NCBI RefSeq assembly: GCF_000427685.1
Contig: NZ_KE386573.1
Location: 1,720,938 to 1,784,937, forward strand
Length of the DNA: 64,000 nt
Origin: Haloplanus natans DSM 17983
Lineage (GTDB): Archaea; Halobacteriota; Halobacteria; Halobacteriales; Haloferacaceae
Direction of reading: 5' to 3'
The notes under the pieces were generated by a model, which ran no database searches, was not told where the DNA came from, and saw only the letters and a program-made list of their open reading frames with translations. Position numbers and translations under genes: made by a program. Positions 20,056 through 49,199 of the stretch are shown here, in pieces; within the stretch, counting starts at the first letter, position 1, and the number at the start of each line of letters is the position of its first letter.

Positions 20056-20892
20056 ATGCCAAGCTACGCGGAGTGGACTGCAGCGCAAGAGACGACGGCC
20101 GTCACGGTCGATGGACACGAACTCGATGTCGCCTACTACGACGAGGGATCGGGCGATCCCGTCGTTTTTCTCCACGGGATTCCGACGAACTCCTACCTGT
20201 GGCGGGACGTGATCGGACCGATCGCAGCGGAACGCCGCGTCATCGTGCCGGACATGATCGGATACGGCAACTCGTCGATTTTCGACGGATTCGATAGATC
20301 GATCCGCGCACAGGAGGAGATGGTAACGGAACTGCTGTCGGCGCTTGATGTCGAAAACCCCTCGCTGGTCGGTCACGACCTCGGTGGCGGCGTGTTCCTC
20401 CGCTACGCGGCCCATCATCCGGATGCTGTCGACGAGCTCGTGCTATCGAATTCCATCGCGTACGACTCCTGGCCGATCCAGTTGATCACCGACTTGGGAC
20501 TTCCCGAGACGGCCCGAGAAACCGGCGTCGAGGAGTTACAAGCGATGCTCGACGACCTCTTTCGAGACACGCTCCACGGGTCGGAGCACAGCGACGCGTT
20601 CCTCGACGGGATGACCACGCCGTGGAACTCCGAAGCGGGTGTAACCTCTCTCGTTCGAAACGCGACCTCGACGAACACGAATCACACGACTGAGGTCGAT
20701 CCGGAAACGATCGAAGCCCGGACGCTCCTCCTGTGGGGGGCGGACGATCAGTTCCAGTCCATCGAGTGGGCCGAGCGCCTGCAAGCGGATATCGAGACGG
20801 CCGAACTGATCGGGCTGGACGACGCAAACCACTGGGTGATGGAAGATCGGCCGGACACCTATCGCGACGAACTGGCCGACTTCCTGCGCTAA
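20056..20892 (+). CDS. Alpha/beta hydrolase of the haloalkane dehalogenase/epoxide hydrolase class
   Basis: The protein has 278 aa. It has the oxyanion motif FLHGIPTNSYLW, nucleophile elbow GHDLGGG with Asp as nucleophile, acid Asp in WGADDQF and His in ANHWVMED. An Asp nucleophile points to ester-intermediate enzymes such as haloalkane dehalogenases and epoxide hydrolases rather than serine esterases. A related but distinct hydrolase lies at 43704. It follows an HTH-10 regulator, and a fold-back repeat begins 18 bp after its stop. Confidence 0.85.
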   Translation: MPSYAEWTAAQETTAVTVDGHELDVAYYDEGSGDPVVFLHGIPTNSYLWRDVIGPIAAERRVIVPDMIGYGNSSIFDGFDRSIRAQEEMVTELLSALDVENPSLVGHDLGGGVFLRYAAHHPDAVDELVLSNSIAYDSWPIQLITDLGLPETARETGVEELQAMLDDLFRDTLHGSEHSDAFLDGMTTPWNSEAGVTSLVRNATSTNTNHTTEVDPETIEARTLLLWGADDQFQSIEWAERLQADIETAELIGLDDANHWVMEDRPDTYRDELADFLR

Positions 20893-20910: not shown

Positions 20911-20996
20911 CTGATACTGCCGGCTGTAAGTCGATCAAAATATTCGCCACCCCGAGGTGGCGAATATCGTGAAACAGTTACAGTCGGTAGTATGAG
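20911..20996 (+). repeat. Fold-back intergenic repeat, copy 1
   Basis: This is an 86-bp imperfect palindrome. The outer stem is 20911-20929 with 20978-20996 (18 of 19 pairs, two as G-T). The internal loop contains GTC (5') opposite AAACAG (3'). The inner stem, ATATTCGCCACC with GGTGGCGAATAT, is a perfect 12 bp around CCGA (20952-20955). It shares the asymmetric arm motifs GTAAGTC and ACAGTTAC with copies at 40309, 41931 and 48912. The remainder of the gap to 21259 holds only a promoter-like TGTATAAG near 21205. Confidence 0.8.
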
Positions 20997-39295: not shown

Positions 39296-40312
39296 ATGGC
39301 TGTAGACCAGCAAGCGTACGAAGTCGTCGTCGTCGGTGGCGGACCAGCAGGGCTCTCGACGGCGCTGTACAGCGTGCGACTCGGGCACGAGACGGCGCTC
39401 GTCGACCGTGGCGGCGGCCGGGCGGCGATGATGAAAGACGTCCACAACCTCGTCGGAACGACCGAAGAGACGAGCGGAATGGAGCTCCTGGGGATCGGGA
39501 AGGAGCAACTGAAGGAGTACGGCTGTACGGTACTCTCGGATCGAATCGGATCGGCCGGCCGGACCGACGACGACCGGTTCCGTCTGTGTGGGACCGACGT
39601 GGACTACGTTGCCGACGCGGTCACGCTGGCAATGGGCATGAACGACGTGCGACCGGACCCGCCGCTCCCTCGGACCGGTCGCGGGCTCCACTACTGCCTC
39701 CACTGTGACGCACACATGTTCGCGGACGAGTCCGTGTACGTGATGGGGTACGGCGAGAGCGCGGCGCACGTCGCCGCCATTCTGCTCAACTTCACCGACG
39801 AGGTCGACCTGCTGACTCGAGGTGACGAGCCAGAGTGGAGCGACGAGACCGACGAGATGCTCGAAACACATCCGATCGACGTTGTTCACGAGGACGTGAC
39901 CGGCGTCCAGAACGGGAGCGACGGCTGGTTAAAAACGCTGGAATTCGAAGATGGAGCCGTCCGCGAGTACAAGGGCGGCTTCGCGCTGTACGGCGCCGAC
40001 TACAACAGCGGGCTCGCGACCGACCTCGGCTGTGAATTGAACGACGACGGGACCGTGGAGGTGGACGACCACGGGCGGACGAGCGTCGACGGCGTCTACG
40101 CGGTCGGCGACCTCACTCCCGGCCACAACCAGGTGCCGATCGCGCTGGGAGACGGCGCGAAAGCGGGGATTTCGATCCACTGGACGTTGCGGGATTTCCC
40201 GCGCGACCCCGACCTCGTCGAGGAACAGGGGCCCGTTCGAAGCGACGAGGTTCCCGGAATGCCCGATGAACTCCTCGAACAGGCTACCGAGTTCCACACG
40301 TACGACTCATAG
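39296..40312 (+). CDS. Thioredoxin-reductase-like FAD/NAD(P) oxidoreductase
   Basis: The protein has 338 aa. It has FAD motif VVVVGGGPAGLSTALY, redox CxxC in HYCLHCDAHM, NAD(P) region VYVMGYGESAAHVAAILL and C-terminal FAD motif GVYAVGDLTPGHNQVPIALGDG split over the isoalloxazine contact. This matches low-molecular-weight thioredoxin reductases, with degenerate NADPH motif (YGES for GGGDS) and an extra C-terminal tail. The electron donor and partner are uncertain. The stop codon (40310-40312) lies inside fold-back repeat copy 2. Confidence 0.85.
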   Translation: MAVDQQAYEVVVVGGGPAGLSTALYSVRLGHETALVDRGGGRAAMMKDVHNLVGTTEETSGMELLGIGKEQLKEYGCTVLSDRIGSAGRTDDDRFRLCGTDVDYVADAVTLAMGMNDVRPDPPLPRTGRGLHYCLHCDAHMFADESVYVMGYGESAAHVAAILLNFTDEVDLLTRGDEPEWSDETDEMLETHPIDVVHEDVTGVQNGSDGWLKTLEFEDGAVREYKGGFALYGADYNSGLATDLGCELNDDGTVEVDDHGRTSVDGVYAVGDLTPGHNQVPIALGDGAKAGISIHWTLRDFPRDPDLVEEQGPVRSDEVPGMPDELLEQATEFHTYDS

Positions 40313-40390
40313 TAGCCTTTGTAAGTCAGAGCGCGCCTGATCGCACGCAGTCCTGCAATCAGGTGTGCAAACCGTTCCAAAGGCTACTAT
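40309..40390 (+). repeat. Fold-back intergenic repeat, copy 2
   Basis: The element is 82 bp. The outer stem 40309-40324 with 40375-40390 has 15 of 16 pairs. The internal loop has GTCAGA opposite AAACCG. The inner stem 40331-40345 with 40354-40368 has 14 of 15 pairs if two G-T are allowed. It begins within the stop codon of the upstream gene. Same family as copies at 20911, 41931 and 48912. Confidence 0.75.
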
Positions 40391-40566
40391 AGGCGTCTCA
40401 ACGCGCACGTCTCGTCGCCGACTGCCGGGAGCCACGTACGTATCGAACCGTGTAGTCCGTACACCACTGTGGAGCAGCGACAGACACCCGCCGAGTGTTT
40501 ATTTTTACGCTCGACGCATATGTCGTCGGGAGAGACCCGTCACACGCTCTCCCCCACTACGCGACG

Positions 40567-40743
40567 ATGGCAGGAGACCATCCATCCGGCTGCTGTCCGA
40601 ACTGCGGACACGACATCCGACCCGTGGACCATCCGATTTCGTACGAACGCTCGGATCGGTCGGTCGGCGTGTTCGCTGAATGCCCCTCGTGTGGCGCCGT
40701 CGTCGAACCTGAAGAAAACTCATCACGGGGCACGGAATCGTGA
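40567..40743 (+). CDS. Small zinc-binding protein (CPNCG / CPSCG)
   Basis: The protein has 58 aa. Two CxxC knuckles (CPNC near residue 10, CPSC near 39) separated by a beta-rich acidic stretch (HPISYERSDRSVGVFAEC). A recurrent haloarchaeal zinc microprotein family of unknown role. ATG at 40567; a TATA-like TTTATTTTTAC near 40498-40508 may drive it. Confidence 0.65.
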   Translation: MAGDHPSGCCPNCGHDIRPVDHPISYERSDRSVGVFAECPSCGAVVEPEENSSRGTES

Positions 40744-40891
40744 GGCGGACTACTGTTGAATCCGCGGTCGATGTCCGCAACGGTCGCCACACCGCAGAAT
40801 CTCGGCAGGGTCACGAACGACCCAGCCTCGTGCAACGACGCCGCACGCCTGCCGGGCCTATATACACCCTCGCCGTTCGGGTAGGAATGCA

Positions 40892-41197
40892 ATGCTTGTC
40901 GTCCATGCGACGTTTCCGATCGATCCGAACCACCGCGACCGAGCGGTCGAACTGATGCGAGAGCTGGCCGAACACTCCCGGGCGGAGGACGGAATCATCG
41001 ACTACCGGGTCAACACGGATATCGACGACCCGAACCTGTTCAGATTCGTCGAACAGTACGAGAGCGAAGCGGCGTTCGGCGCACACGTCGAGACGGATCA
41101 TTTCGGCGAGTTCGAGGCGGCACTCCCCGAGTTGCTCGACGGAGAGCCGGACGTAACCCGATTCGATGTCGAGAGCGTCAGCGAGGTCGAACTCTAG
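40892..41197 (+). CDS. Antibiotic biosynthesis monooxygenase-like (ABM) protein
   Basis: The protein has 101 aa, a ferredoxin-like fold: MLVVHATFPIDPNHRDRAVE, then HSRAEDGIIDYRVNTDIDDP and LFRFVEQYESEAAFGAHVET. This is the ABM/putative quinol monooxygenase family (YgiN-like). Activity on quinols or a role in stress is possible. A TATA (CTATATACA) about 28 bp before ATG suggests leaderless transcription. Confidence 0.82.
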   Translation: MLVVHATFPIDPNHRDRAVELMRELAEHSRAEDGIIDYRVNTDIDDPNLFRFVEQYESEAAFGAHVETDHFGEFEAALPELLDGEPDVTRFDVESVSEVEL

Positions 41198-41395
41198 CTT
41201 CCCGGCCGTATGCCGACCGAGAGAGTGCAACTCTCGAAAACCACGTTCCGTGGAGCCCAATCCCTAACCGACGGGCCTCGAAGGCACCGTCTCGATCCGG
41301 TCCCGGCAGGGACTATTTAAATCGACGGGGACAGCGTACGCGGGTTGCACAGCCACGCGTCCCCTATATTCGACGCCCACGTACCGACAACCGGA

Positions 41396-41752
41396 ATGAC
41401 GAAAGCAGCAGTTATCATCCTCGCAGGCACCGACTCGCACGCCGACCAAGGCCGTCTCGCAAACGGCCTCGAAACGGCCAAGGAGTTCGCCGAGACCGAG
41501 GGCGACGATGTCGAACTCATCTTCGACGGTGCTGGGACGCAGTGGATTCCCGAACTCGAAGACGAAGACAGCGACTACCACGAACTCTATCGGACAGTTC
41601 GCAACGACACGTCCGTCTGTGACTACTGTGCCGGTGCGTTCGGCGTCGACGACGTCGTCAACGATGCCGGACTGGTAACACTCGACGACCACGACGGGCA
41701 CCCGAGCATTCGGTCGCTCGTCGCCGACGGGTACGAAGTTATTACGTTCTGA
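41396..41752 (+). CDS. DsrE/DsrF-like family protein
   Basis: The protein has 118 aa. A Rossmann-like DsrE fold begins KAAVIILAGTDSHADQGRLA, with VELIFDGAGTQWIPEL and CDYCAGAFGVDD. The cysteine pair (CDYC) is at the position where DsrE proteins carry persulfide-reactive Cys. Role in sulfur transfer is possible but unproven. The stop TGA overlaps the start of fold-back repeat copy 3. Confidence 0.8.
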   Translation: MTKAAVIILAGTDSHADQGRLANGLETAKEFAETEGDDVELIFDGAGTQWIPELEDEDSDYHELYRTVRNDTSVCDYCAGAFGVDDVVNDAGLVTLDDHDGHPSIRSLVADGYEVITF

Positions 41753-41820
41753 GACGGATCGGCGTAACTGTCTGTCGGTAGTTCGCCAGACCCTCCTGGC
41801 GAATACCGGTGAGGACGGAC
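41752..41820 (-). repeat. Fold-back intergenic repeat, copy 3 (degenerate, inverted orientation)
   Basis: The left arm has GTAACTGTCTGTCGG. The inner stem TTCGCCAG (41782-41789) with CTGGCGAA (41796-41803), extended by GGTA/TACC with one bulge, is intact. The outer right arm is not recognisable, so the copy has lost one side. Orientation is opposite to copy 4, 110 bp away. Confidence 0.55.
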
Positions 41821-41920
41821 CATCATCACGGAGATCATCCGCGCGAACGGGTGGGAAATAGACATCGCGGAGTCGTAAACGGGCGAGTCCCGATTCGAGG
41901 TCGTGATCGAGGAGTCGTGA
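41816..41920 (+). pseudogene. C-terminal remnant of a histidine kinase
   Basis: In frame with 41819, the sequence reads TIITEIIRANGWEIDIAES, then a TAA, then TGESRFEVVIEES and TGA. It matches the last strand-helix-strand of haloarchaeal HATPase domains (IV..IAEAHGWEV...GGARFE). One internal stop and no upstream coding sequence show it is debris between two fold-back repeats. Confidence 0.5.
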
Positions 41921-41930
41921 ACGCCGTTTC

Positions 41931-42012
41931 ATACGGTTTATTGTGAGTCAGTACCGGCGGTTCGCCGGACCATCTCGGCGAACCGCTCGTAAACAGTTAC
42001 AATAATCCGTAT
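41931..42012 (+). repeat. Fold-back intergenic repeat, copy 4
   Basis: The element is 82 bp. Outer stem 41931-41946 with 41997-42012 (15 of 16 pairs, one G-T). Ten-base internal loop strands GTCAGTACCG and TCGTAAACAG. Inner stem GCGGTTCGCCG (41957-41967) with CGGCGAACCGC (41976-41986), perfect 11 bp. Loop 8 bases. Confidence 0.8.
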
Positions 42013-42131
42013 CACACGGCACCCCGATCCATACGTCCGACCGAGCAGGCGGCTGTTGATTTCGTCGGACGTCGAACGTAGGATCGATTCGGCCGACAAC
42101 AGTTATTATGTGAGATGTGGGACTCGGGACT

Positions 42132-48696: not shown

Positions 48697-48911
48697 TCAC
48701 CGTATGTCAGAGCCGGTCGGCTTAGACCCAGCTTCCTGTGATCGGGTAGGAATCACGTTCAATGGCCCAATGACCGGATCCGTCTGACCGCGGTATAGAT
48801 GTAGCGAACCACGGGACGAAACCGCCACCTTTCGGGATCGTTCAAAATCAATATGATCCGTGAATCGGTATTCGATAGAGACGGTGCGAATCTGACTACA
48901 GAGGGCTACTG
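48697..48911. other. Intergenic stretch without supported gene
   Basis: After gdh, 48697-49199 holds fold-back repeat copy 5 (48912-48991) and more AT-rich sequence. Short open frames on either strand lack recognisable protein features. The base composition shift begins about here. Confidence 0.5.
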
Positions 48912-48991
48912 ATAGGGGTTATCGTAACTGTCTATAGATTCTCGCCGGGACGGTCCGGCGAGAATCTCTGATGACTTCCAATAATCCCTGT
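48912..48991 (-). repeat. Fold-back intergenic repeat, copy 5 (inverted orientation)
   Basis: The element is 80 bp. Outer arms 48912-48927 and 48976-48991 (14 of 16 pairs if two G-T are allowed). Inner stem AGATTCTCGCCGG (48936-48948) with CCGGCGAGAATCT (48955-48967) is perfect over 13 bp. The GTAACTGTCT arm is on the left here, so it is inverted relative to copies 1, 2 and 4. Confidence 0.75.
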
Positions 48992-49199
48992 GAGTTTTCT
49001 CGAAGAAAGCATCCTCAAATGAGGATATCGAAGGGAGATAATTGGTCACCCTTTGAGGTCGTGAACGGAACGGCAATCGCCGTCAGAGCATTCTCGTTTC
49101 CCACGTCGTTTCACACGACGAGACAAGAACAAGTTCCCCTCTGCTCCGAGCCTTCCGTTGGGCTGACGCATATCACTCAGCCACTTCTTCGGAGATAGC

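Follow-up and report, generated by a model that had tools for sequence, protein, structure and literature searches.

The window, the whole stretch of 64,000 nucleotides of Haloplanus natans DSM 17983 that was analysed, carries five copies of a short fold-back repeat, all of them where the earlier note had placed them. These copies come from at least three different subfamilies, which is why their stems are so dissimilar. The copies and the 3-bp target duplications that flank them are as follows, in positions of the window:

20912-20914 and 20993-20995: target duplication TGA of copy c1
20915..20992, + strand: copy c1, subfamily C (TACTGCCGGCTGTAAGTC...), 78 bp, by direct reading
40310..40389, + strand: copy c2, 80 bp, of subfamily D (TAGTAGCCTTTGTAAGTCAGAGCGCGCC...), inserted at the end of ORF 39296-40312
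41753..41826, - strand: copy c5, degenerate, ends approximate
41929..41931: left target duplication TCA of copy c3
41932..42011, + strand: copy c3, 80 bp, of the main subfamily (TACGGTTTATTGTGAGTCAGTACCGG...), with a precise empty site in the relative G005
42012..42014: right target duplication TCA of copy c3
48910-48912 and 48991-48993: target duplication TGA of copy c4
48913..48990, - strand: copy c4, arms divergent, 78 bp, by direct reading

Copy c1 lies 19 bases 3' of ORF 20056-20892, and c5 starts immediately after the stop codon (TGA, 41750-41752) that closes ORF 41396-41752. At c2, the left triplet TCA (40307-40309) occupies the former stop position of ORF 39296-40312, which now terminates on TAG (40310-40312), the first codon of c2 itself. 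Further copies of subfamily D are present in this genome and its relatives; at the c2 site the element is absent in G001, G002 and G006, and in G005 that codon is occupied by a copy of another subfamily, inserted independently. Along with the element, these three relatives G001, G002 and G006 also lack the stretch of about 370 bp located 3' of c2 (window 40390-40757), within which a small CXXC-containing ORF begins at about 40567. The copies had been described as 80-86 bp long; they are real, but each end of the element proper lies 1-4 bases further inward, the outermost bases belonging to the 3-bp target duplication. Their fold-back nature is confirmed for four copies (DNA z scores of -8.4, -4.6, -6.3 and -5.7 against dinucleotide shuffles), while the degenerate copy reaches a z of -1.9.

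Beyond the window, the pattern GTNAGTCN{30,58}CAGTTAC, built around the two fixed motifs, has 97 matches in the 3.8-Mb genome and the reversed control pattern has 1, so the fold-back family does not arise by chance. A covariance model built from 31 copies yields at least 150 matches in this genome, all with E < 2e-11 and with both strands of the palindrome counted. A total of 121 distinct copies or fragments were recovered from the fetched stretches, 107 of them near-full-length; the element, which contains no transposase gene, is exactly 80 bp long in 91 of these 107. In the 80-bp copies, base i pairs with base 79-i from the tip to the loop; 87% of the stem pairs are Watson-Crick, a share that falls to 20-30% on sliding the partner by 1-3 bases. 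Of the 35 positions that separate tip from loop, 31 are paired, and the arms form terminal inverted repeats. The stem is interrupted by a fixed unpaired block: among 87 distinct sequences, 82 have the G.G mismatch and 86 the C.C mismatch. What had been taken for an asymmetric internal loop is a symmetric mismatch whose asymmetry lies in its sequence only: GTCA stands opposite (A/C)CAG in the main subfamily and GTCAAT opposite AAACAG in another subfamily. The main type is laid out as TACGGTTTATT-GTAA-GTCA-TTACCGGTGGGTCGCC-loop-GGCGACCCACCGGTAA-(A/C)CAG-TTAC-AATAATCCGTA, and the other subfamilies retain the TA tips, GTAAGTC and ACAGTTAC (or close variants) with different stems. The loop is oriented one way in 48 copies and the opposite way in 42. 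Between L038 and L041, and again between L039 and L051, the arms are identical at every base and the 10-base loop is exactly inverted (GACCCGTCCT versus AGGACGGGTC). Two half-elements (L252, G000:C7:618756-618802; L253, G000:C7:679619-679668) each hold one intact arm that ends at about the loop centre, as if the hairpin tip had broken, and pairs of copies 20-300 bp apart occur at L140 (G000:C7:2943428-2943620) and at G000:C7:1027572-1027957.

The sequences around the copies record insertion. A flanking 3-bp direct repeat of the form TNA is exact in 83 of the 107 copies and in none is it longer; the exact duplications comprise 38 TGA/TGA, 38 TCA/TCA, 4 TTA/TTA and 3 TAA/TAA, with C or G as the middle base in 92%, and among all TNA...TNA pairs N is identical in 83 of 88. 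The flanking triplets lie outside the inverted repeat, since TCA would otherwise face TGA, and does not. The search for empty sites in relatives that the earlier note had called for gave two clean cases, in both of which the triplet is present once: at the c3 site, the empty sequence in G005 is GTTTCACACGG, compared with GTTTCA-[80 bp]-TCACACGG in this genome, and the site of the L037 copy reads CTGCTGAGACGGG in the relative G006. Furthermore, a main-type copy is nested within the GTAAGTC motif of a subfamily-C copy (G000:C7:200720-200858, L013/L014), and four element sequences each occur identically at two loci. Three natures had been considered for the repeat: a structured RNA, a cruciform recognised by a recombinase, or a MITE. 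The TNA duplication, the empty sites, the nesting and the identical copies support the last and the first is not upheld; a cruciform may play a part in recognition of the element. In kind, the element is a MITE: it is short (under about 500 bp) and without a transposase gene, it has terminal inverted repeats, and it has a target duplication together with empty sites; ends shared with an autonomous transposon, a usual but not required feature of MITEs, were not found in the haloarchaeal genomes searched.

Why the two arms match is a separate question. In a set of 26 copies, nearly all from different genomes, covariation, the test proposed in the earlier note, is strong in both stems: 20 of 31 pairs show two-sided changes, 90% of the cells are paired, and the covariation score of 0.309 compares with 0.111 in shuffles (0 of 500 shuffles reach it) and at most 0.083 in slid controls. 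The claim that structure is conserved more than sequence is correct between subfamilies and genera but not within a subfamily, where the arm sequence is conserved and recent changes mostly break pairs. This strong covariation of both helices, together with the location of two thirds of the copies at gene 3' ends, is what would be expected of a structured RNA or a 3'-UTR regulatory element (terminator, stabiliser or protein-binding RNA) conserved for its fold. Yet covariation, though real, does not discriminate RNA from DNA pairing. In RNA, a G.U pair is tolerated and an A.C pair is not; here G.T (101) is not significantly preferred to A.C (81) in this genome (p 0.16), and the counts are 12 versus 26 between genera, so that of the marks of a structured RNA the covariation is present and the G.U preference is absent. 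Singleton states break pairs in 43 cases and are paired in 5. Stem differences between nearest copies are one-sided in 245 cases and two-sided in 31, with 19 compensatory changes against about 4 expected, and single copies therefore mostly decay uncompensated after insertion. As G.T is not preferred, private changes break pairs, orientation relative to the gene is random (36 versus 31) and the loop inverts freely, the pairing of the arms is a DNA-level property and not an RNA one. With the loop inverted in about half of the copies, no Rfam covariance model matching the element and a clean insertion footprint, a fold conserved as RNA is very improbable; a secondary effect of the element on host-gene transcripts is conceivable. 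Arm-to-arm copying or exchange would hold the pairing at the DNA level and would also flip the loop; such exchange, or template switching between the arms, would explain the loop inversion and part of the arm matching, and the need for both ends to be usable in transposition would also keep the arms matched.

Reconstructed empty sites define the target as the palindrome G W C T S A G W C, with no difference between stop-codon and intergenic copies; in summary form it is GWCTNAGWC, of which the TNA core is duplicated. Genes were called with a heuristic codon-usage caller trained on an annotated 50-kb stretch of Natrialba magadii pNMAG01, on which it recovered 36 of 37 stops, and then on the window. 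Based on these heuristic calls, the duplicated triplet is the exact stop codon of the adjacent gene in 67 of the 107 copies; 5 more lie within 12 bases of a stop, 35 are intergenic and 0 of 107 are inside coding sequence. A simpler open-frame test places 66 copies at a stop, compared with 0 and 5 in the two wrong frames, and among 12 copies on annotated plasmids of other haloarchaea, 7 have a duplicated triplet that coincides exactly with the end of a CDS. The observed stop share of 67/102 compares with an expected 20% among sites outside coding interiors (p about 5e-23), the expectation being derived from a motif trained only on intergenic insertions and scored over 296 kb of this genome. This intergenic-trained motif took the place of one derived from all sites, which gave 34% expected stops in the window and was dropped as circular. 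As a pattern, the enrichment at stop codons is certain. It would result from the target motif combined with either target choice or the survival of harmless insertions, and an insertion into a stop codon leaves the stop of the gene intact by means of the target duplication. Whether selection alone accounts for the position, with insertions falling at random over the motif and surviving only where harmless, is an evenly balanced matter. The lack of any copy in coding sequence is consistent with it, as is the rise of the expected stop share to 65% in the window once promoter regions are excluded; however, this 65% comes from a motif trained mostly on stop-codon sites, where the intergenic-trained motif gives 20%, and 29 of the 35 intergenic copies occupy promoter-holding spaces (13 between divergent and 16 between tandem genes), so that such insertions do survive.

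The family extends well outside the genus, within which exact-pattern counts per genome range from 0 (an incomplete genome) to 97. In an order-wide covariance-model search, matches occur in about half of the genomes (119 of 243) and in 50 of the 77 genera, the copy counts of many genomes being lower bounds, and all 17 positive genomes (17/17) of a phylum-wide sample fall within this order. Among the carriers are Natrinema, Natronorubrum, Natrialba, Halomontanus, Natribaculum, Natronococcus, Haloterrigena, Halococcus, Halostella and plasmids of Haloarcula, and both the plan of the element and its TNA repeats are preserved in copies from other families. None was found in the phages searched for the element, and the single match on viral contigs, inside a helicase gene, was set aside as chance.

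Several known systems share part of this description. Members of the IS1031 subgroup of the IS5 family (ISLrh and others) insert at TNA with an exclusive 3-bp duplication (PMC12016507), and the 3-bp TNA duplication is common to both; in contrast to the 80-bp, gene-free element described here, ISLrh is 857 bp long, encodes a transposase and has unrelated ends, GAACCTGTC.... In eukaryotes, Tourist MITEs have short inverted repeats and a 3-bp TTA/TAA duplication and are mobilised in trans by the IS5-like transposase of PIF-Harbinger elements (PMC2213677). The inverted-repeat plan and the 3-bp duplication are alike, but the domain of life is another, and here 92% of the exact duplications have C or G in the middle. 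Neither system has a visible counterpart of its transposase in the hosts: the DDE_Tnp_4 (PIF/Harbinger) and DUF4096 domains (PF13359, PF13340) are absent from 41 element-rich genomes (DUF4096, 0/41), and the PF01609 elements of the genus differ. The SMRs, MITEs and PATEs of Haloquadratum walsbyi are likewise transposase-free mobile repeats of a haloarchaeon; SMRs have inverted terminal repeats that are, as here, unrelated to known transposons, make no target duplication and land in other mobile elements, and PATEs are IS605-derived and have neither terminal inverted repeats nor target duplication (PMC3119063). By comparison, the present element makes a 3-bp duplication and lands in stop codons, and, combining terminal inverted repeats with a target duplication, it is neither a PATE nor an SMR as defined there (PMC3119063). 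Bacterial intergenic palindromes of the REP/BIME and ERIC type are also short, of high copy number and near gene ends, whereas the element here is archaeal, has its TNA duplication exactly in the stop codon and bears a fixed mismatch motif. A REP mobilised by a RAYT, where a Y1 (HUH) transposase inserts without target duplication, is disfavoured by the target duplication seen here and by the lack of any gene recurring beside the copies; an attC-like integron site was rejected on the dispersal of the copies outside cassette arrays and on their duplication. The earlier note knew of no named element of this form, and the open-licence papers searched contain no description of one.

The family is very probably an order-wide haloarchaeal group of non-autonomous DNA transposons (MITEs), each an inverted repeat of about 80 bp with a fixed mismatch, a TNA duplication and stop-codon sites, moved by a transposase supplied in trans. 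PIF also prefers a 9-bp palindrome. A trans-acting transposase of the DDE type is proposed because the footprint, a 3-bp TNA duplication in a palindrome, matches those of IS1031 and PIF/Harbinger; it would make the kind of 3-base staggered target cut that IS1031-group and PIF/Harbinger-type enzymes make, would read the conserved TA tips and the subterminal motifs GTAAGTCA / GTAACTGT, and would insert the element in either orientation. No partner transposase or longer relative was found, and we therefore infer the enzyme from its footprint only. A one-ended pattern, meant to catch longer elements that share this end, has 0 matches in 293 genomes; the unpaired ends of this genome comprise only truncated, half or degenerate copies, with no autonomous relative among them; only ordinary paralogues recur beside copies; and the arm alone, searched against plasmids, returns only the same hairpins plus chance matches. 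The PF01609 transposases of 11 genomes of the genus were rejected as partners: their elements end in GAGGGTGTCATAGAAC, GGCTGTGTTGAATC and similar sequences unrelated to the element, and their flanks read as 7-8-bp duplications, longer than the 3 bp seen here. One IS transposase of 332 aa (ends GAGGGTGTCATAGAAC) has more than 20 equal-score matches in G003 (e.g. L148, L155, L165), so this single genome of the genus has probably undergone a recent IS burst.

Deletion of an insertion sequence is the usual origin of MITEs. The copies could accordingly be deletion derivatives of a resident insertion sequence with the same terminal repeats (TACGG...GTAAGTCA ends), and their TNA footprint equals that of the IS1031 subgroup (PMC12016507); this origin is nonetheless rather doubtful, as no longer element with this end exists in the 293 genomes or among the unpaired ends of this one and the IS elements of the genus have other ends. 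It is less likely still that the substrate is recognised as a folded hairpin or cruciform, in the manner of attC sites or of REPs and their RAYT transposases, with strand or direction indicated by the mismatch. The whole-length fold-back, in which the unpaired positions are fixed while the stems change, and the absence of a longer element with the same ends from 293 genomes would fit such recognition. Insertion of the REP/IS200 HUH type makes no target duplication, however, and attC recombination none of the 3-bp TNA kind, unlike the element here; a DDE-like enzyme could itself use the folding of the element. Besides the autonomous relative and the transposase that were not found, a further point counts against the trans-mobilised MITE family as proposed above, namely that the compensatory changes between genera exceed the strict needs of a passive MITE. 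We regard as possible, though on balance improbable, an unrecognised haloarchaeal enzyme acting in trans that reads the folded or mismatched hairpin, cuts C^TNAG and truly prefers gene ends, without any autonomous relative; if so, this would be a mobile hairpin targeted to stop codons that spares the genes of its host.

The combination of order-wide spread, whole-length fold-back with a fixed mismatch, insertion into stop codons and an autonomous partner that is not visible is unusual, and a family that in places exceeds 100 copies per genome, and that occurs in roughly half of the sampled haloarchaeal genomes, has no description in the open-licence literature searched. It poses the concrete question of which enzyme moves the copies. 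It also exemplifies a route by which a mobile element is tolerated, the stop codon being entered and then restored by the element's own target duplication. As a result of these insertions, gene 3' ends in many species gain a strong inverted repeat, which bears on transcript ends, on predicted 'structured RNAs' and on annotation.
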